Origin: a virus
IMG/VR virus record: IMGVR_UViG_3300020595_000065
Span: 1 to 44,812 of that record
Strand: one strand, 5' to 3'
DNA length: 44,812 nucleotides
Shown here in pieces: positions 2,946 to 38,540 of this stretch; the first letter of the stretch is position 1; each line of letters starts with the position of its first letter. Below the pieces are notes generated by a model. That model saw nothing but the letters and a program-made list of their open reading frames with translations, was not told the origin of the DNA and ran no database searches. The position numbers were made by a program, and so were the translations under genes.

Positions 2946-2964
2946 CGCTTTTTAAATTTGTGTA

Positions 2965-3303
2965 ATGAGTATATTAGATATAGCTAACGCAGATTTAAAC
3001 AACTCTATTAAAGCAGATATGGAGTTAATTAATGTACAAGTTAAAGCAAACACGCCACAGACAGAAGTTAGTTGTTTAAAAAGTCATATAGGCGTTACAG
3101 CAGACGCTAACACAGGGCAACTTATAGCTAGTGAATCTATTACTATATCTTTTTTAGAAAAAGAGCTATTAGATAAAGGTATAACACTTGTAGCAGATGA
3201 GAGCATAGCAAACTGGAAAACATTTAGCTTTTTGTTAGTTGAGCAAATGCCAGATAAAACTTTAGGCTTAATAAAATGGCAGGCTGCAAGGTATGACACT
3301 TAA
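2965..3303 (+). CDS. Putative head-tail joining (neck) protein
   Basis: 112 aa. No diagnostic motif is visible. Position between the capsid gene and the tail terminator candidate, and a length close to lambda gpFII (117 aa), suggest a head-completion or neck protein. The centre (SLKS-like turn, IGVTADANTG, SITISFLEKELLDKGI) alternates hydrophobic and polar residues as in a small beta-sandwich. It overlaps the following gene by 11 bases, so the two are translationally coupled. Confidence 0.4.
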   Translation: MSILDIANADLNNSIKADMELINVQVKANTPQTEVSCLKSHIGVTADANTGQLIASESITISFLEKELLDKGITLVADESIANWKTFSFLLVEQMPDKTLGLIKWQAARYDT

Positions 3304-3928
3304 AATAATAGATAAAGAAATTACAGGGCAAAGCACGGCTCAGATCATCACTACGCAAATAGGCATAATTTTAAAAGCTGAATTTACAAATCAGTATGAT
3401 AGTTACAATCAGCAAGCTAAATTTGATGTTGATATATATTTAAACAGCCACAGCATATATAAAAAATACTTAGAAGACCCAACAAAAGTCAATTCTTTAA
3501 TTAACGTATTATTTACAAACGCAACTACAGATAGTTTATTATCAAACGGTACTTTAGATATTACCTACAATTATAAACTGCAATTAATTACACGTGCTAA
3601 TGCTAATACTACACTAGATGAAGCAGCAACAAAGATAGCAGCTGACAAAATGCAGGAATTGATATTTATTATCACACAGATCTTTACATATCATGCAAAT
3701 ATGAACCCACCTTTACAGCTCAACAATATACACAATTTAGCGTTATCTAGTTACGAAGTGGGAGCATTAGACGAAAACAACACAATAGATAAATATATAG
3801 GCTGCATGTTTGATTTAAAAATCACGGCTAGAGAATATCCACTACTTGCTAATATAAATATTTTACAAGGCTTCAATATAGAGTTAGACTACAACAACAA
3901 AATTATTAAATTAATTATAGACACATGA
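3293..3928 (+). CDS. Putative tail terminator / tail completion protein
   Basis: 211 aa. Located directly upstream of the sheath gene and overlapping it by four bases (ATGA). In Mu-like and other contractile-tail phages this slot holds the protein that caps the tail tube and sheath (Mu gp37 position). The protein is a mix of helices and strands, with a central helix DKMQELIFIITQIF (about 118-131) and a C-terminal strand ending NNKIIKLIIDT. No motif proves the function; assignment is from gene order and size. Confidence 0.4.
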   Translation: MTLKIIDKEITGQSTAQIITTQIGIILKAEFTNQYDSYNQQAKFDVDIYLNSHSIYKKYLEDPTKVNSLINVLFTNATTDSLLSNGTLDITYNYKLQLITRANANTTLDEAATKIAADKMQELIFIITQIFTYHANMNPPLQLNNIHNLALSSYEVGALDENNTIDKYIGCMFDLKITAREYPLLANINILQGFNIELDYNNKIIKLIIDT

Positions 3929-5400
3929 CTACAGCAGTTTCTCCGAGTGCCACAGTTTCGCAGGTTGGCATACAAACAGAATTTACTACAGCAAATCAAA
4001 CTAGTAGTCCTTTATTGCCGCAAGCCATATACGTGATGGGACAGGGTAACACGGGCATAGCTTATGTTAGTGACTCAATAAAAATAAATTCAGCAGCACA
4101 AGTCGCCACGAAGTATGGCAATGGCTCGCCACTACATTTAGCAGCTAAAGCTATACACGGCTTAACTAATGCTAAAGTTCCTGTTTATTTTTACGGTTTA
4201 CAAGAGGACGGTGCAGCAGTTGCAGCTAGCCATAATTTAATTATATCAGGATCGCAAACTGTAACAGCAGAATATCAAGTTGTTATAAATAATATAAAGT
4301 CTAATAAATTCTCCCTACTAGCCACCGATACAGCGAGTACAGCAGGTGATAAATTAGCAGCAGCAGTTAACGCAACTTTAGGTTACCCAGTAGGGGCAAT
4401 TAACGCAGTAGGAACAATTACTTTAACAGCAAAATCTAAAGGCAGCTGGGGAAATGAGTTATACGCAGATATAATGGATGGTAAAGGTGGCTTTGTGTTC
4501 GCGGGTGTTGCTGTTAAATTCACAAGTGGAGCTAGTAACGCAAATGTGCAGCCGGCACTATCAGCAATTGAAGATAGTGCATATAGAACTGTACTAGTTA
4601 ACACGTTCGACATGTCAGACTCAACAGCATTAGACGCTATAAAAGAAAAAGGTGAAGCAAGATGGTTGCCTACAATTAAAAAGCCGTTTATCTCATTTGT
4701 AGGAAGCAATGCAGATACCACCACAGCAATTACAGCTATAACAGCAACTAGAGCGTTGGATAAAATTAATGCAGTATTTGCAAACCCGTCAAGCCATGAT
4801 TTACCTTTAATTATTTCTTCTAGCATTGCTAAATATGTAGCAGAGAAAGCTAATACATCTCCAGCCGAAAACTATGCAGGTGCATTATCTCAACTAACAC
4901 CTGGTGCTATAGAATGGACGCTAGCAGACAAAGAAGACGCTAAAACGCAAGGTGTAGGCTTTGTGCGTATTGTATCGGGAGCTGTAAAAATACATGAAGT
5001 AGTTAGCATGTTTGATGATTCGCAGTACGCAGAAATATCAATGCCCTTTAGGAAAGTGTCAGATATTACAAGATTACAAAACGTTATGTACGCTTTAGAT
5101 TTAAAATTAAGCACTGATTTTTATAAAGAATCTGCATTAGTGGATGTTGGTCAAATAGTAGCTGCAGGCGTACAAGCTGTATCTGTTAAAGATGTAAAAG
5201 CTGCTGTTGTGGAAGTGGTAAAATCTTTAGTAGTAAAAGCTATCTTAACAAATCAAGCTGGAATACTTGCTAATTTAATTGTTGCAAAAGATAGCACTAA
5301 TGCAGATAGAGTAAATATACAACTACCTACCATTGTTAGTTCAAACACTTCCATATTTAGCATAGATGTAGGATATCAATTTAACACTGGGGCAGAATAA
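3925..5400 (+). CDS. Tail sheath protein (contractile tail)
   Basis: 491 aa, the size of Mu gpL (495 aa). The N-terminal region PLLPQAIYVMGQGNTGIAYV (about 30-49) matches the start of Mu/P2-type sheaths, where a strand leads into 'V-G-G-G' and then a segment setting which subunits join. The middle has LTAKSKGSWGNELYADI (about 167-183), the typical 'aks.G.wGN.l...i' of sheath domain insertions. The C-terminal domain (IVAAGVQAVSVKDVKAAVV onward) forms the conserved core. It marks the phage as a myovirus. The tube gene follows with a one-base overlap (TAATG). Confidence 0.85.
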   Translation: MTTAVSPSATVSQVGIQTEFTTANQTSSPLLPQAIYVMGQGNTGIAYVSDSIKINSAAQVATKYGNGSPLHLAAKAIHGLTNAKVPVYFYGLQEDGAAVAASHNLIISGSQTVTAEYQVVINNIKSNKFSLLATDTASTAGDKLAAAVNATLGYPVGAINAVGTITLTAKSKGSWGNELYADIMDGKGGFVFAGVAVKFTSGASNANVQPALSAIEDSAYRTVLVNTFDMSDSTALDAIKEKGEARWLPTIKKPFISFVGSNADTTTAITAITATRALDKINAVFANPSSHDLPLIISSSIAKYVAEKANTSPAENYAGALSQLTPGAIEWTLADKEDAKTQGVGFVRIVSGAVKIHEVVSMFDDSQYAEISMPFRKVSDITRLQNVMYALDLKLSTDFYKESALVDVGQIVAAGVQAVSVKDVKAAVVEVVKSLVVKAILTNQAGILANLIVAKDSTNADRVNIQLPTIVSSNTSIFSIDVGYQFNTGAE

Positions 5401-6424: not shown

Positions 6425-8102
6425 AGAGCTAGTAGTAAAAACAGTTTTCAAAGCAGTTGATAAAATAAGTCAGCCTTTACGTCGCATGCAGTCCAGCATG
6501 GGCAGGTTTAGTAATACATCTATGCGTTCCATGCGTATGTTAGAAATGCGTTTTAACCGTGTAAATCGCTCAATAGCAAGCATTGGTAAAACTGGGTTTG
6601 TAGCAGCAACGGCGGGTAGTGTGGCACTAGGATTGGGCATTAGCAAAGTAGTAAAAGAATTTAGCAAGTTAGAGAACGCAGAAGCAGCATTTACACCTCT
6701 ACTTAAAAGCGGCAAAAAAGCTAAAGAGATGGTGGAAGCCATACAAGCCACAGCGAGTACAACACCCTTTCAGTTTGAAAACTTGCAAAAATCAGTAGGA
6801 CAATTATTACCAGTAATGAATGGTGATATACAAAACACAATCAAGACTTTAAGAATGATAGGTGATACTGCTGGAGGTGATGCACAAAAATTAGAAGGAA
6901 TTACCAGAGGTTTCACTAAAGCTATGCTAAAAGGCAAGGTAGATATGGAAAGTTTCAACATGATTGTTGAGAAGGGTGTGCCTATATTGGATGATTTACG
7001 CAAAGTTGCAACAGATATAAATTTTAATAAATTTAAAGGTACAACAGACCAAGAGAAGTTTTTTTCAGCAATGAGACGTGGGTTAATCACAACAGACCAC
7101 CTTACTAAAGCCTTTGAACGTATAACTTCTAAAGGTGGGATATTCTTTAGAGGCATGGAGATTGCCAGTAAAACTACCACAGGTAAATTATCTACGATGA
7201 TGGATAACTTTAGCTTAATGTTAGCTAGAGTAGGTGGAGCAATAGCACCAGAGCTAAACAAGTTATTTGATAGTTTGAATAAACAGTTTATAGATTTATC
7301 TACTATTTTATCTCAATCTATCAATCAAAAAAAACTAGTACAAACCTTTAAAGATGTATTTGGAAGCATTATATCTATGCTAAATAATGTAGGTGCTACA
7401 GTAAAAGCATTATTAAATAATCCCAGCGGCTTAGATAATTTAAAAACAGTAATAGGAGGTATAGTCGGTTTAACTAAGTTTATTATTACTAATGCTACGG
7501 AGATAGTTTTTTTTGGTGCTGCATGGGTTGGATTAAGCATAGCAATTAAAGGTGCCGCAGTAGCTATGGGAGCTTACAACATGGTGTTAGTTATTACTAG
7601 CAAAATTAGTAAAGCAGTGTTACTTGTAACAACCGCATTAAATATTGCGATGCGAGCAAACCCGATAGGTTTATTAATAACTGGTGTAGCAGCATTAATA
7701 GCATTACCTCAACTTATTATTAATAATTGGGACAGTATAAAAAGCTTTTTTTCTAGTATTTGGGATGGCATAAAACGAGGCGTAGGTGTTGCTATAGATG
7801 CACTAAGCACTTTGGGTGATTATTTTAATAACTTGTTTAGCGGCATTTTTAGCAAATTTGGGAAACTACTAGGATTAACTAGTAATAAAGGCTTACAATT
7901 AAACACAAAGCACACGCAGCAACTACTAGCACCTAGTCCTATATCACAAAGACCAACAGCAGAAGGGTTAAATATTTTAGATAAAGTTACATCTACAAAA
8001 TCAACTACAGAAAACTTTGTTACTATCAGAGATGAAACAGGAAGAGCAGAAATGCAAGGCTTTCATAATCCCTTTGTTCAACTTTTACCAAGTGGAGCTT
8101 AG
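6417..8102 (+). CDS. Tail tape measure protein
   Basis: 561 aa. The N-terminal half has the tape-measure signature: a Gly/Ala-rich hydrophobic segment (GFVAATAGSVALGLGISKVV, about 59-78), then the conserved block FQFENLQKSVGQLLPVMNG and GDTAGGDAQKLEGITRGFTK (about 117-166). The second half has several hydrophobic segments (about 345-440), including NPIGLLITGVAALIALPQL followed by NNWDSIKSFFSSIWDGIK, typical of these proteins, which enter the host membrane during DNA delivery. The length, about 0.15 nm of tail per residue, would give a tail near 85 nm (inference). It overlaps the frameshifted chaperone by eight bases. Confidence 0.88.
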   Translation: MAKELVVKTVFKAVDKISQPLRRMQSSMGRFSNTSMRSMRMLEMRFNRVNRSIASIGKTGFVAATAGSVALGLGISKVVKEFSKLENAEAAFTPLLKSGKKAKEMVEAIQATASTTPFQFENLQKSVGQLLPVMNGDIQNTIKTLRMIGDTAGGDAQKLEGITRGFTKAMLKGKVDMESFNMIVEKGVPILDDLRKVATDINFNKFKGTTDQEKFFSAMRRGLITTDHLTKAFERITSKGGIFFRGMEIASKTTTGKLSTMMDNFSLMLARVGGAIAPELNKLFDSLNKQFIDLSTILSQSINQKKLVQTFKDVFGSIISMLNNVGATVKALLNNPSGLDNLKTVIGGIVGLTKFIITNATEIVFFGAAWVGLSIAIKGAAVAMGAYNMVLVITSKISKAVLLVTTALNIAMRANPIGLLITGVAALIALPQLIINNWDSIKSFFSSIWDGIKRGVGVAIDALSTLGDYFNNLFSGIFSKFGKLLGLTSNKGLQLNTKHTQQLLAPSPISQRPTAEGLNILDKVTSTKSTTENFVTIRDETGRAEMQGFHNPFVQLLPSGA

Positions 8103-28051: not shown

Positions 28052-28288
28052 ATGAGCTTAATACAACTAATAAGAGATAAACAAAAAAAAGAACTTTTAC
28101 GCTTAGTAGACCATTTTGGTAGTCAGTACATGTTAGCTAAAGAGTTGGGTGTATCTAAGCAGGTAGTGAATGGCTGGACAAAAAGAGGCCGTATATCAGC
28201 AACAGGAGCAAGAAAGATAGATAAGCTATTACACGGAGTATTTAAAAAAGAGGATTTAAGACCAGACGTGTATAACTGGGATAAGTAA
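28052..28288 (+). CDS. Cro/YdaS-like DNA-binding regulator
   Basis: 78 aa. Helix-turn-helix at about 24-45 (SQYMLAKELGVSKQVVNGWT), followed by KRGRISATGARKIDKLLHG and ending FKKEDLRPDVYNWDK. The terminal 'LRPDVYnW' block is characteristic of Cro/YdaS-type phage regulators. It should bind the adjacent symmetric operator and switch the rightward and leftward operons. No Shine-Dalgarno is seen before ATG 28052; its leader is only about 25 bases. It overlaps the primase gene by one base. Confidence 0.8.
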   Translation: MSLIQLIRDKQKKELLRLVDHFGSQYMLAKELGVSKQVVNGWTKRGRISATGARKIDKLLHGVFKKEDLRPDVYNWDK

Positions 28289-30525
28289 TGTATCAGGATT
28301 ATGTTGAAACGGGTATGCGTGTGTTTGCTTTGCACAAGGTGGAAGAGGGGGTGTGTGGTTGTGGTGATGTAAAGTGTAAAGCATTGTGCAAGCATCCGCG
28401 GGCTAGGAATTGGCAAGCTACACCTTTATGGGAGCCAGAGCAACTAGAGGCACAAGAAAGGTTCTTTAAAAGTGGATTTGGGGTATTAGTAGAGGGCTAT
28501 CTTGTTATAGATGTAGACGCTAGAAACGGAGGGTTACAGGGCTTAGAAGCTTTAGAATTAGCTTTCCCAGAATTATTAATGTCCTGTGAGTTTATTGTAA
28601 ATACGGGCAGCGGTGGAGGCTCTAAACACTTATATTTTAAACTACCCGCAAGCCAACAAAAACTAGTCCAGACGCACAAGAACTTTTTAGGAATTGACTT
28701 TAAAACAAGTGGATTTGTTGTAGGTGCTGGGTCTATTCATAAAAGCGGCAATAAGTATAAAGCTGTATTAGGCATGCCTGGTGATATAACAGAAGCTCCA
28801 CAAGTTTTAATAGAATTGTTACAGCGTCCACTTCACCACAAAGCAGAGTTTGACGGCTCTAAAATAGAGTTTACAGAGATACAGTTAAAAGAATTGTTGC
28901 AGTATATAACTAATCATGACGCGGCTTATGAAAAATGGATCCAGGTTGGCATGGCTTTGCATGATTGTACAGCTGGCACTGGCTTAGAGCTTTGGAATTC
29001 ATGGAGTAAAAGCACAACACCTACAAAACATGACGATAATACATCCCAGAAGTCCTGGCATAGTTTTGGCAAGTCTGTAAATAAAATAACCGCTGGAACA
29101 CTGATACATTTAGCACGTGAAAATGGTTATATTATGCATAGCAACACGCAGCCAGAAATTACTACTTCTAAGCCTTCTAGTGTAGATTTACAGAACCCCC
29201 CTGGCTTTGTGGGTGAACTGTGTGCATGGATTAATAATCAGTGCTTATATCCACGTAAAAACCTTGCTGTAGCGGCTGCACTGCAAATAGTTTCTAATCT
29301 TGCTGGCATGCGTTTTGCTGATGCGATGGACGGTGTAACCAGTAATTTGATAAGCTTCTGTGTGGCTGGAAGTGGCACTGGTAAAGAAAGTTTATTGAAA
29401 GCGTTTAGCGAGTGTATGCGATTAGTTGATTTACATCCTGCTATGTACGGCTCTTTTAAGTCAGAACAAGAGTTATACCGCAATTTGATAAGGCACCAGG
29501 GAGCTTTTTATGCTATAGATGAACTGGGCATCCACTTAAGCAAGATTAAAAACGCAAGCACTAAAGGAGGTGCTAGTTACTTAGAGGGCTTGCTAGGTGC
29601 TGTTATGAGTGCTTCTACTAAAGCAGATAGTTTTTTAGCAATTACGGGAGATTTAAAAGAGGAAATAAGAGCGTTGATTAGTCGTGAGCTGGTAAGTGTA
29701 AATAAGCAATTAGACGATAAGCCAAGCACTTATTTAGAAAGTAAATTAATATCTTTGGAGCGTCAACTAAAAACAATTGACAATGGTATTGAGAAACCTT
29801 TTTTGTCTATTTTAGGTTATACAACCCCCTCCACTTTTGATAATTTGTTTGATTTTGAAACTGCCACAAACGGCTTTTTATCTCGTGCTTTAATATTCAA
29901 GGAGCAAGACAATAACCCACGGCGTAAAGAAGATTTTAAAAAACAAGAGATGAGTGAGCAACTAAAAAGAGGTCTGCAACTTCTGGCAAATGGGGGAAAA
30001 TATAGTGTTACTGATGAGATGAAAGCACGTATTGAATTTTTAGACGAGAAAACACCCATTAGCACAACTCCAGACGCTAAGAATAAGCTGCAGGAAGTAT
30101 ATCGCCATTTTTGGAACCAGGCTGAAGAGTTAATGTCTAAAAGCGGCCTTGAAGCTATACCGCGTCGCGGCTGGGAATTAGTATCCAAAGTTAGTTTAAT
30201 TCTTGCTTTAAAAACTGGCGTTAGAGAGCTGCAAGATGTGGTATGGGCTTTTGAACTTGTGAAGTGCGATATTGACTCTAAAATCTCATTAGCTACTGCT
30301 AACACGTCCGACAATATGCTTGAACAGCTCTGTAATAAGATTGTAGGCAACTTAGGGAAAGAATGGACACTACAAGGTACGTTAAAGAATAAATGCCGCT
30401 CTTCAACAGCAGAGGAGTTCCAAGCTGCATTGGATTACTTAGTAGCTAACACGATCATCGCAAAACAAGAAGTACCACACTCCTCTAAAAAATCTATCTC
30501 AGTTACTAAATACCTCAAACTTTAG
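28288..30525 (+). CDS. Bifunctional Prim-Pol primase and helicase
   Basis: 745 aa. N-terminal Prim-Pol (AEP) domain: Cys/His set CGCGDVKCKALCKHPR (23-38), metal-binding LVIDVDARNGG (Asp75, Asp77), GGGSKHLYFKLP and GFVVGAGSIHKSG. A PriCT-like helical domain follows (LKELLQYITNHDAAYEKWIQ). Then a helicase domain: Walker A AGSGTGKESLL (about 358-368), Walker B FYAIDELG (about 408-415). It would both prime and unwind the phage DNA. No phage DNA polymerase is seen, so host replicase is probably recruited. The candidate origin lies immediately downstream. Confidence 0.85.
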   Translation: MYQDYVETGMRVFALHKVEEGVCGCGDVKCKALCKHPRARNWQATPLWEPEQLEAQERFFKSGFGVLVEGYLVIDVDARNGGLQGLEALELAFPELLMSCEFIVNTGSGGGSKHLYFKLPASQQKLVQTHKNFLGIDFKTSGFVVGAGSIHKSGNKYKAVLGMPGDITEAPQVLIELLQRPLHHKAEFDGSKIEFTEIQLKELLQYITNHDAAYEKWIQVGMALHDCTAGTGLELWNSWSKSTTPTKHDDNTSQKSWHSFGKSVNKITAGTLIHLARENGYIMHSNTQPEITTSKPSSVDLQNPPGFVGELCAWINNQCLYPRKNLAVAAALQIVSNLAGMRFADAMDGVTSNLISFCVAGSGTGKESLLKAFSECMRLVDLHPAMYGSFKSEQELYRNLIRHQGAFYAIDELGIHLSKIKNASTKGGASYLEGLLGAVMSASTKADSFLAITGDLKEEIRALISRELVSVNKQLDDKPSTYLESKLISLERQLKTIDNGIEKPFLSILGYTTPSTFDNLFDFETATNGFLSRALIFKEQDNNPRRKEDFKKQEMSEQLKRGLQLLANGGKYSVTDEMKARIEFLDEKTPISTTPDAKNKLQEVYRHFWNQAEELMSKSGLEAIPRRGWELVSKVSLILALKTGVRELQDVVWAFELVKCDIDSKISLATANTSDNMLEQLCNKIVGNLGKEWTLQGTLKNKCRSSTAEEFQAALDYLVANTIIAKQEVPHSSKKSISVTKYLKL

Positions 30526-33324: not shown

Positions 33325-33745
33325 AAAAGAACTTCCGACACGTAAAGCATTAGATAAATTAATTACAGAAGGGCAAGGAACTATAAGTGTAGCAGTTGCT
33401 GGCATACTAGAGCAACCAGCTAGACGGTTACCTTGTAGGAAAAAATTACACAACGGTGAGCACGTAGAAATGGACATAATAAAAGTTGGCTTTTGTGCAT
33501 CTACACCTTTTTATAACTTGAAAACAAAAAAAACAAGTGTAAATCACTATAATTGTGTAGCGTACAATGAGAATGCAGAAAGTATTCTAAATGCTCCAGT
33601 TGGAGCGGCTGTATCGTTTAACAACGCAAGAGTGCATTTTATGAATTACAATAAAATAACAGTAGATGGTAGTTGCGTTCCTACAAAAACCTTTGAATTT
33701 GTGGTTCAAAATAATAGCAATTTATTAATAGATATAATGGAATGA
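33314..33745 (+). CDS. Putative OB-fold, SSB-like protein
   Basis: 143 aa from ATG 33314; a GTG at 33305 would add three residues. The order of strands resembles a single-strand DNA-binding OB fold: TISVAVAGILEQPARRLP near the start, VEMDIIKVGFCASTPF, then HYNCVAYNENAESILNAPVG and a final strand TKTFEFVVQ. 'YNCVAYNENAE' is like the conserved 'n.VafgklAE' strand of SSB proteins. No acidic tip is present. It would be a second ssDNA-binding candidate beside DUF669. Moderate confidence; no search was possible. Confidence 0.45.
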   Translation: MGYKKELPTRKALDKLITEGQGTISVAVAGILEQPARRLPCRKKLHNGEHVEMDIIKVGFCASTPFYNLKTKKTSVNHYNCVAYNENAESILNAPVGAAVSFNNARVHFMNYNKITVDGSCVPTKTFEFVVQNNSNLLIDIME

Positions 33746-34200
33746 TGACAAAATATATTACTTTTGAGATAGCAGAGTCTAACGTTAAAAAATCATTGAT
33801 AGATGTAGCGTTTCATGTTATAGCAAATAAAGAAAAATCAAAGCATATTAATATAAGAGAATCACAAATTTTAATTGCTGAATACTTTGAAAAAGAAGGT
33901 GTAGAAGCATTTAACAAAAAAAAGATAGAAACTGGATGCGAGGTGATAAAAAATATGGATCATTTTTACAAATTTGGGATGTTATATATTTTGTATGATC
34001 TTAATAATTTAACTACTACCGACGCCAGAAAATTAGTAATAGAAGTATGCAAATTACAATCTACACAATTTAGCAAGCAATTAGTACAATTTGCAACAGA
34101 TTCACATTTTATAAATAAAAGACAAAAATATCCCAAAATTACAAAGGCGTTGTGTTCATTAATGTATGACAAACCTGGTAGACCTAAAAAAAATAAGTAA
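33742..34200 (+). CDS. Unknown protein with AT-hook-like tail
   Basis: 152 aa, overlapping the previous gene by ATGA. Mostly helical: NVKKSLIDVAFHVIANKEKS, ESQILIAEYFEKEGVEAFNK, TDARKLVIEVCKLQSTQFSK. The C-terminus is basic, DKPGRPKKNK, with the GRP core of AT-hook DNA-binding peptides, which bind the minor groove of AT-rich DNA. It shares an mRNA with the zinc-knuckle and SSB-like proteins. A DNA-associated role is thus likely but not proven. Confidence 0.5.
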   Translation: MMTKYITFEIAESNVKKSLIDVAFHVIANKEKSKHINIRESQILIAEYFEKEGVEAFNKKKIETGCEVIKNMDHFYKFGMLYILYDLNNLTTTDARKLVIEVCKLQSTQFSKQLVQFATDSHFINKRQKYPKITKALCSLMYDKPGRPKKNK

Positions 34201-34208
34201 TTAATAAC

Positions 34209-34236
34209 TTGCTATAGATAAATAAAATGTTAGAAT
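34209..34236 (+). promoter_or_regulatory. Promoter, TTGCTA-16-TAGAAT, with no ORF behind it
   Basis: TTGCTA (34209-34214), 16 bases, TAGAAT (34231-34236). It has the same geometry as the other accessory promoters, but no coding region follows; the strong hairpin at 34291-34331 lies about 50 bases after the predicted start. Confidence 0.55.
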
Positions 34237-34242
34237 AGTATA

Positions 34243-34340
34243 CTTGAGGATTTGTACTACGGGGGGGTAACTACAAATTAGTCAACCCTCAATAAAGCGG
34301 GTTGCCTTCTTGCTGGGGGGCTCGCTTTATTTATTATTAG
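34243..34340 (+). ncRNA. Candidate small regulatory RNA
   Basis: Between the promoter 34209-34236 and the hairpin at 34291-34331 there is no ATG-led ORF. The 5' part can fold TTTGTA (34251-34256) with TACAAA (34272-34277), displaying a G7 loop (34261-34267). The 3' part has two exclusive options: CAACCC/GGGTTG (34283-34288 with 34299-34304), or the long terminator stem. About 95 bases in all. Promoter plus structured RNA plus terminator-like end suggests an sRNA gene. It might instead be an attenuated leader of the next gene. Confidence 0.45.
34291..34340 (+). terminator. Strong hairpin, probable terminator
   Basis: AATAAAGCG (34291-34299) pairs perfectly with CGCTTTATT (34323-34331), extended inward by four more pairs (three of them G-T). 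The sequence after it is U-rich (TTATTATTAG) rather than a pure U-run. It would end the candidate sRNA. Confidence 0.55.
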
Positions 34341-34476
34341 ATCTAGCACTACTGCTAAAAAAGCTTATTTCATAAAAATAGGGTTCAATTTAATAAACAT
34401 AAGTTCAATTGCTTCTTTAATAAATGGTATATATTGCGCTTTTTTTATTATTTAAAATAAATACAAGGATATAAAA

Positions 34477-35361
34477 ATGAATATACGAAAATTAAAAAAA
34501 GATAAAAAGGTTTGTTTCCAGTTGCATGAATATGTAAAAAATCCTGTGGCATTAGGACGTATATCAGAAGGAATTACACAAGAAGCATTGGCAAAAAGAA
34601 TGAATGTATCACAGGCCTATATTAGTAAATTAGAATCTAAAAATGTTGTTAGTGATAAAGCATTAAAAGAATTCTACAAAGTGTTAAATATGCCAAAAAA
34701 AACTAAAGATGTTGATCTTAAACTGTATAAACATGCAAAATACAGTCCGATTGTACATATGCCAAAAAATAATAATTTTATATTTTATTTTATATTTTCT
34801 TTATCAATGATTCTGTTGGGTTTAGCATTATCTTTAATGCCTCCTACTTTTACAAAAGCACACGCTGCAAGCGTAGAAGGTAACATTAGTAAATATAATA
34901 ATCAGATACGCTACAACTATAAAATTCAAGCATTCCATACAACAGTACAAGAAAAGCTCAACTCTAGATTTGGGATGTTTAGTATTAAGTATGTGCATAA
35001 AGCAGACAAAATGAGATATTATGCAAAGCTGCAAAAACACAGTAGTAGCATGTTAAAACTAGAACGTACGTTTAGTGCAGGCTATGCGATAACTAAGCAT
35101 TGCGATGCGTTTAGTGGCTTGCGTAAAGACATAGTAGGAAGTGCAATTTTAGCAATGGGCAAATGTGGCGTAGTGTATGATAATGTACAGTTATCGTCTT
35201 CGTACTTGTATACACATTTGCAGCAAATCATGAGTAATAAGTTCAAAATATTTATTACACAAAAAATCTTTATAAGTTACGAGTTTCAAAATTACAAAAC
35301 TGAACAAGAAAAATATAACTGGAATCTTCAGCAGCTAAATTTTGGCTACAAATTTGATTAA
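34477..35361 (+). CDS. Membrane-anchored XRE regulator with periplasmic domain
   Basis: 294 aa. Residues 27-60 form an XRE-type helix-turn-helix (ITQEALAKRMNVSQAYISKL at 33-52). A linker leads to one hydrophobic segment, FIFYFIFSLSMILLGLALSL (101-120), then PPTFTKAHAAS (122-132), in which AHA|AS resembles a signal-peptidase I site. The remaining about 160 residues are outside: FGMFSIKYVHKADKMRYYAK, AILAMGKCGVVYDNV, ending QLNFGYKFD, strand-rich. So a DNA-binding domain inside and a sensory or beta-barrel-like domain outside. ATG has AAGGA upstream; weak TTGCTT-15-TATATT lies at 34409-34435. Confidence 0.7.
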   Translation: MNIRKLKKDKKVCFQLHEYVKNPVALGRISEGITQEALAKRMNVSQAYISKLESKNVVSDKALKEFYKVLNMPKKTKDVDLKLYKHAKYSPIVHMPKNNNFIFYFIFSLSMILLGLALSLMPPTFTKAHAASVEGNISKYNNQIRYNYKIQAFHTTVQEKLNSRFGMFSIKYVHKADKMRYYAKLQKHSSSMLKLERTFSAGYAITKHCDAFSGLRKDIVGSAILAMGKCGVVYDNVQLSSSYLYTHLQQIMSNKFKIFITQKIFISYEFQNYKTEQEKYNWNLQQLNFGYKFD

Positions 35362-38453: not shown

Positions 38454-38469
38454 TATATGCATTAAACAC

Positions 38470-38497
38470 TTGCATTAGATAAAAATAAGGTTATAAT
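38470..38497 (+). promoter_or_regulatory. Promoter, TTGCAT-16-TATAAT
   Basis: TTGCAT (38470-38475), 16 bases, TATAAT (38492-38497), then AGCATAAG, AAACATAAGGAATTAAAA before ATG 38541. Confidence 0.7.
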
Positions 38498-38540
38498 AGG
38501 TAGCATAAGAAATTAAACATAAACATAAGGAATTAAAAAA

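Follow-up and report, generated by a model that had tools for sequence, protein, structure and literature searches.

Transmembrane regulators and phage outer-membrane proteins

A transmembrane transcription regulator is a single protein that combines a DNA-binding domain with one or more membrane segments (PMC10269533). In the ToxR, TcpP and CadC type surveyed there, an N-terminal DNA-binding domain is followed by one membrane segment and an extracytoplasmic C-terminal half, and the phage ORF described here shares this layout. What sets it apart from these regulators is its segment, which resembles a cleavable signal peptide, and its outside half, which relatives encode as an independent exported protein rather than as a dedicated sensor. 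With an HTH_3 domain and a hydrophobic segment in one frame, the ORF formally qualifies as a transmembrane transcription regulator; homology and a conserved cut site argue against stable attachment of the outside domain.

The outside half itself can be compared with small outer-membrane barrels of the OMP_b-brl family (PF13505), with which it shares its size, a signal peptide, a Phe or Leu at the C-terminus and, in its relatives, a sub-threshold profile match; in contrast to that family, the score lies below the family cut-off and the window copy bears an HTH. Phage-encoded outer-membrane proteins exist, for example Lom of phage lambda. Lom was compared as such a protein, but no Ail_Lom (PF06316) profile match was obtained here at an E limit of 10, although most hits beyond about 0.1 are lost to HMMER filtering. 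A limited literature search yielded no account of an XRE domain joined to an outer-membrane-like protein that bears a signal peptide, nor of one gene yielding a surface protein together with a tethered regulator; the search for precedents led no further than the general survey cited above.

The phage and its fusion ORF

The window, which is the whole 44.8-kb virus record, encodes a GpA-type terminase, a tape measure protein, DNA_circ_N and Mu-Gp48-like tail proteins, together with a primase, a YqaJ recombinase and a DNA methylase. The nearest named matches of the terminase are from Vibrio phages (~40% identity) and that of the primase is a Pseudoalteromonas phage primase (43% identity), affinities from which a Gram-negative host is likely. 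No Rfam family matched within the window. Directly upstream of the primase gene, and divergent from the recombination genes, positions 28053-28289 encode a 78-residue HTH-like protein, which falls below the 80-residue minimum of the ORF list and is likely a Cro-like regulator.

The fusion ORF runs on the plus strand from the ATG at 34477 to the TAA at 35361 (34477..35361; 294 residues, no internal stop). A Shine–Dalgarno sequence, AAGGA (34465..34469), lies 7 nt before the ATG with a duplex energy of -5.2 kcal/mol, and codon usage trained on the other genes of the window supports this frame throughout, from the HTH and the linker to the signal and C-terminal sections. The helix-turn-helix core at residues 28-70 (34558..34686) belongs to HTH_3/XRE (PF01381; E 2.6e-7, 31 bits versus a curated cut-off of 23), and the same residues are hit by PHROG transcriptional-regulator families; from these matches the HTH of the fusion protein would be expected to bind DNA. 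A lysine-rich linker follows at residues 73-94 (34693..34758), with no domain match above cut-off in its translation.

Residues 95-130 (MPKNNNFIFYFIFSLSMILLGLALSLMPPTFTKAHA; 34759..34866) form a signal peptide-like segment, assigned from hydropathy and alignments and, in the fusion, preceded by 94 residues. The hydropathy profile has a single strong peak (best 19-residue KD mean 2.33 at residue 102; sampled profile elsewhere below 1), and the hydrophobic segment spans about residues 101-121. An A-x-A site, AHA/AS, is found at residues 128-132 with the putative cut between 130 and 131, so that the segment combines the features of a type I signal peptide: a basic MPKNNN start, a hydrophobic core (FIFYFIFSLSMILLGLALSLM) and AHA at positions -3 to -1. 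The remaining 164 residues (131-294; 34867..35358) make up the exported domain, assigned by homology to proteins of related phages, and end in LNFGYKFD, one residue beyond the terminal Phe. The sequence-only reading had described an XRE helix-turn-helix joined through one hydrophobic segment, with AHA/AS behind it, to an outside half of about 160 residues that ends like a barrel strand, and this description agrees with the uninterrupted frame, the above-threshold HTH_3 match, the single hydropathy peak and the C-terminus found here.

The intergenic stretch 34205-34331 upstream of the fusion gene contains a promoter-like site on the plus strand (TTGCTA-16-TAGAAT, the second hexamer preceded by TG; 34209..34236), identified by consensus match only. 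The 38 bp around this site (34201-34238) recur with a 79% match at 38462-38499, ahead of an ORF-poor region, and the repeat is possibly a phage-specific promoter motif. A strongly folding stretch (z -4.3) follows, with a strong GC-rich, terminator-like 13-bp hairpin on the plus strand at its end (34291..34331). The region 34205-34331 is possibly a small RNA or an attenuator leader; it gave no match in Rfam or in the phage collection.

Stand-alone relatives of the exported half

Relatives of the phage were sought through the terminase. Five viral contigs carry a TerL with 72-73% identity, and only two of them, L002 and L003, reach the locus. In both, the C-terminal domain is encoded as a separate gene of 183-197 residues that has a signal peptide of its own but lacks an HTH (L002 3410-3961; L003 4696-5289). 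The matches of these two proteins to the window protein begin at about its residue 120 and run to its end, with E values of 4e-24 and 2e-20, respectively, and 28-29% identity (25-29% over residues 95-294), and the homology is limited to the region behind the HTH. Both stand-alone genes lie downstream of a homologue of the window gene at 33742-34200 (L002 2406-2888; L003 2399-2869), and each starts at, or just past, the stop of the preceding gene, with no Shine–Dalgarno sequence before its start codon.

Several further genes were noted in L003. A pentapeptide-repeat protein (2964-3704) is encoded beside the stand-alone gene, and two small hydrophobic proteins that are missing from L002 are encoded right before it (4250-4695). 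At 6913-7662, a TET-associated glycosyltransferase (TAGT) is found where the DNA methylase gene of the window matched over a short stretch only.

The stand-alone proteins share with the fusion the cut site, two cysteines and a similar locus, but not the 94-residue HTH front. In the alignment with both relatives, Ala at -1 and Ser at +2 of the cut site are invariant and position -3 is Ala or Ser; Cys209 and Cys230 (window numbering) and the final F-G are also conserved. Met95-Pro-Lys of the window protein aligns with the N-termini of the relatives, Met-Leu-Lys and Met-Phe-Lys, a correspondence (Met95-x-Lys97 with Met1-x-Lys3) in which alignment end effects are possible. Taken at the level of the alignments, these findings support the hydrophobic segment and AHA as the export signal of an exported-protein family.

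This homology bears directly on the proposal of the sequence-only reading that the protein senses the envelope. In such a ToxR-like regulator the segment would remain uncleaved as an anchor, with the C-terminal half sensing the envelope and signalling to the HTH. An HTH, one membrane segment and an outside domain are indeed the standard layout of transmembrane transcription regulators, a common class in bacteria (PMC10269533), and the hydrophobic stretch of ~21 residues is long. However, in sister phages the outside half is an exported protein on its own, with the shared cut site and no HTH; an outer-membrane barrel, if that is what it is, could not remain tied to an inner-membrane anchor by only ~10 residues. 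A trans-envelope sensor is therefore unlikely, since the outside half is export cargo in the relatives. The accompanying suggestion of a cleavage that separates the halves is a better fit than intact transmembrane sensing, with cleavage predicted from the conserved site; release and export of the outside half is more likely than a role as an attached sensor.

Separate genes for the HTH region and the outer domain in relatives would, by the sequence-only reading's own criterion, count against it, and for the outer domain this is the case: it is a separate gene in both relatives. No relative of the HTH half was found anywhere in their records, an absence that carries little weight for L002, a 21.7-kb fragment, the L003 record being 47 kb. 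HTH_3 matches in these records lie below cut-off inside ORFs of 438-562 residues, directly after TerL where they could be placed, and were read as chance. Searches with the HTH alone returned nothing but generic phage repressor-like matches, and the full-length fusion protein found no relative in viral contigs, phages and plasmids beyond one generic HTH match. An alignment search of bacterial genomes with the fusion protein gave no relative, and a TerL search of genomes gave no match. A wider TerL search reached more distant phages, none of which has the exported domain.

The exported half is probably a small outer-membrane beta-barrel, as judged from the properties of the family. Its mature length of about 163 residues, its aromatic content (15-16%), the cysteine pair and the C-terminal Phe or Leu all agree with such a fold. 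Both relatives align with OMP_b-brl over nearly its whole length, with E values of 0.007 and 0.013 (9e-5 and 2.5e-4 per genome), but at 17.0 and 16.1 bits they stay below the curated cut-off of 28.7; being 75% identical to each other, they do not provide independent evidence. The window protein has no OMP_b-brl match at all. Beta-like alternation of hydrophobic residues is weakly above shuffled sequences for the window copy (p 0.018) and not significant for the relatives. AlphaFold models built with the three sequences were unreliable (mean pLDDT 36 and 31), and a PDB profile search returned weak chance matches only.

Proposed origin and processing of the fusion protein

The simplest reading of the alignments is that an HTH was joined in frame ahead of a complete exported-protein gene, whose old start codon would be kept as Met95 (or nearby). 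We propose a lineage-specific fusion, in which an XRE domain precedes a signal-peptide-bearing exported protein and signal peptidase splits the exported barrel from an HTH stub in the inner membrane, and give this proposal about an even chance. Translation of the whole protein would begin at 34477 with its good Shine–Dalgarno sequence. As hydropathy and positive charges suggest, the hydrophobic segment would enter Sec and the HTH would stay in the cytoplasm; signal peptidase I would probably cut after AHA, at residue 130, and the 164-residue C-terminal half would then pass to its predicted location in the outer membrane. By analogy with phage-encoded outer-membrane proteins, the exported half would most likely change the host surface, for example by excluding other phages. 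The HTH, left at the inner membrane on the signal-peptide stub, may be a membrane-tethered regulator or a short-lived by-product. It is quite improbable that the cut also reports barrel export to gene expression, such that each exported barrel would leave one HTH at the inner membrane, or would free the HTH after decay of the stub.

The fusion could instead be accidental and recent, or a sequence error: an upstream HTH gene would have lost its stop, in reality or in the assembly, and would run into the exported-protein gene, the barrel being exported as before and the HTH having no role in the fusion. The fusion is known from one example, with no second assembly found (near-identical records may escape the searches), and the locus is variable among the relatives. 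At the junction, 9 of 30 codons are one substitution away from a stop, and the two halves differ in third-position GC (0.18 versus 0.31), a gap that fits a mosaic origin of the ORF, albeit in a small sample. Set against these points, typical codon use continues through the linker, the HTH is undecayed and the start codon of the barrel lacks its own ribosome site, and we consider an accident or error somewhat unlikely.

Two products might also arise from one ORF, a full-length or HTH protein from 34477 and, separately, the exported protein from the internal Met95 (34759). A classical signal peptide begins at Met95, which lines up with the first residue of the relatives, and their starts likewise lack a Shine–Dalgarno sequence. 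However, no ribosome site precedes Met95 (duplex energy 0.3 kcal/mol), and coupling to an upstream stop, which could serve the relatives, has no stop to act from in the window copy. Separate initiation at Met95 is accordingly held to be very unlikely.

If the fusion protein is indeed produced and processed as proposed, a single phage gene would supply both a surface protein and a regulator anchored in the membrane, their ratio being fixed by an ordinary signal peptidase cleavage. An HTH with a membrane segment need not imply an envelope sensor; the layout is no proof of one here, because the relatives show the outside half as export cargo.
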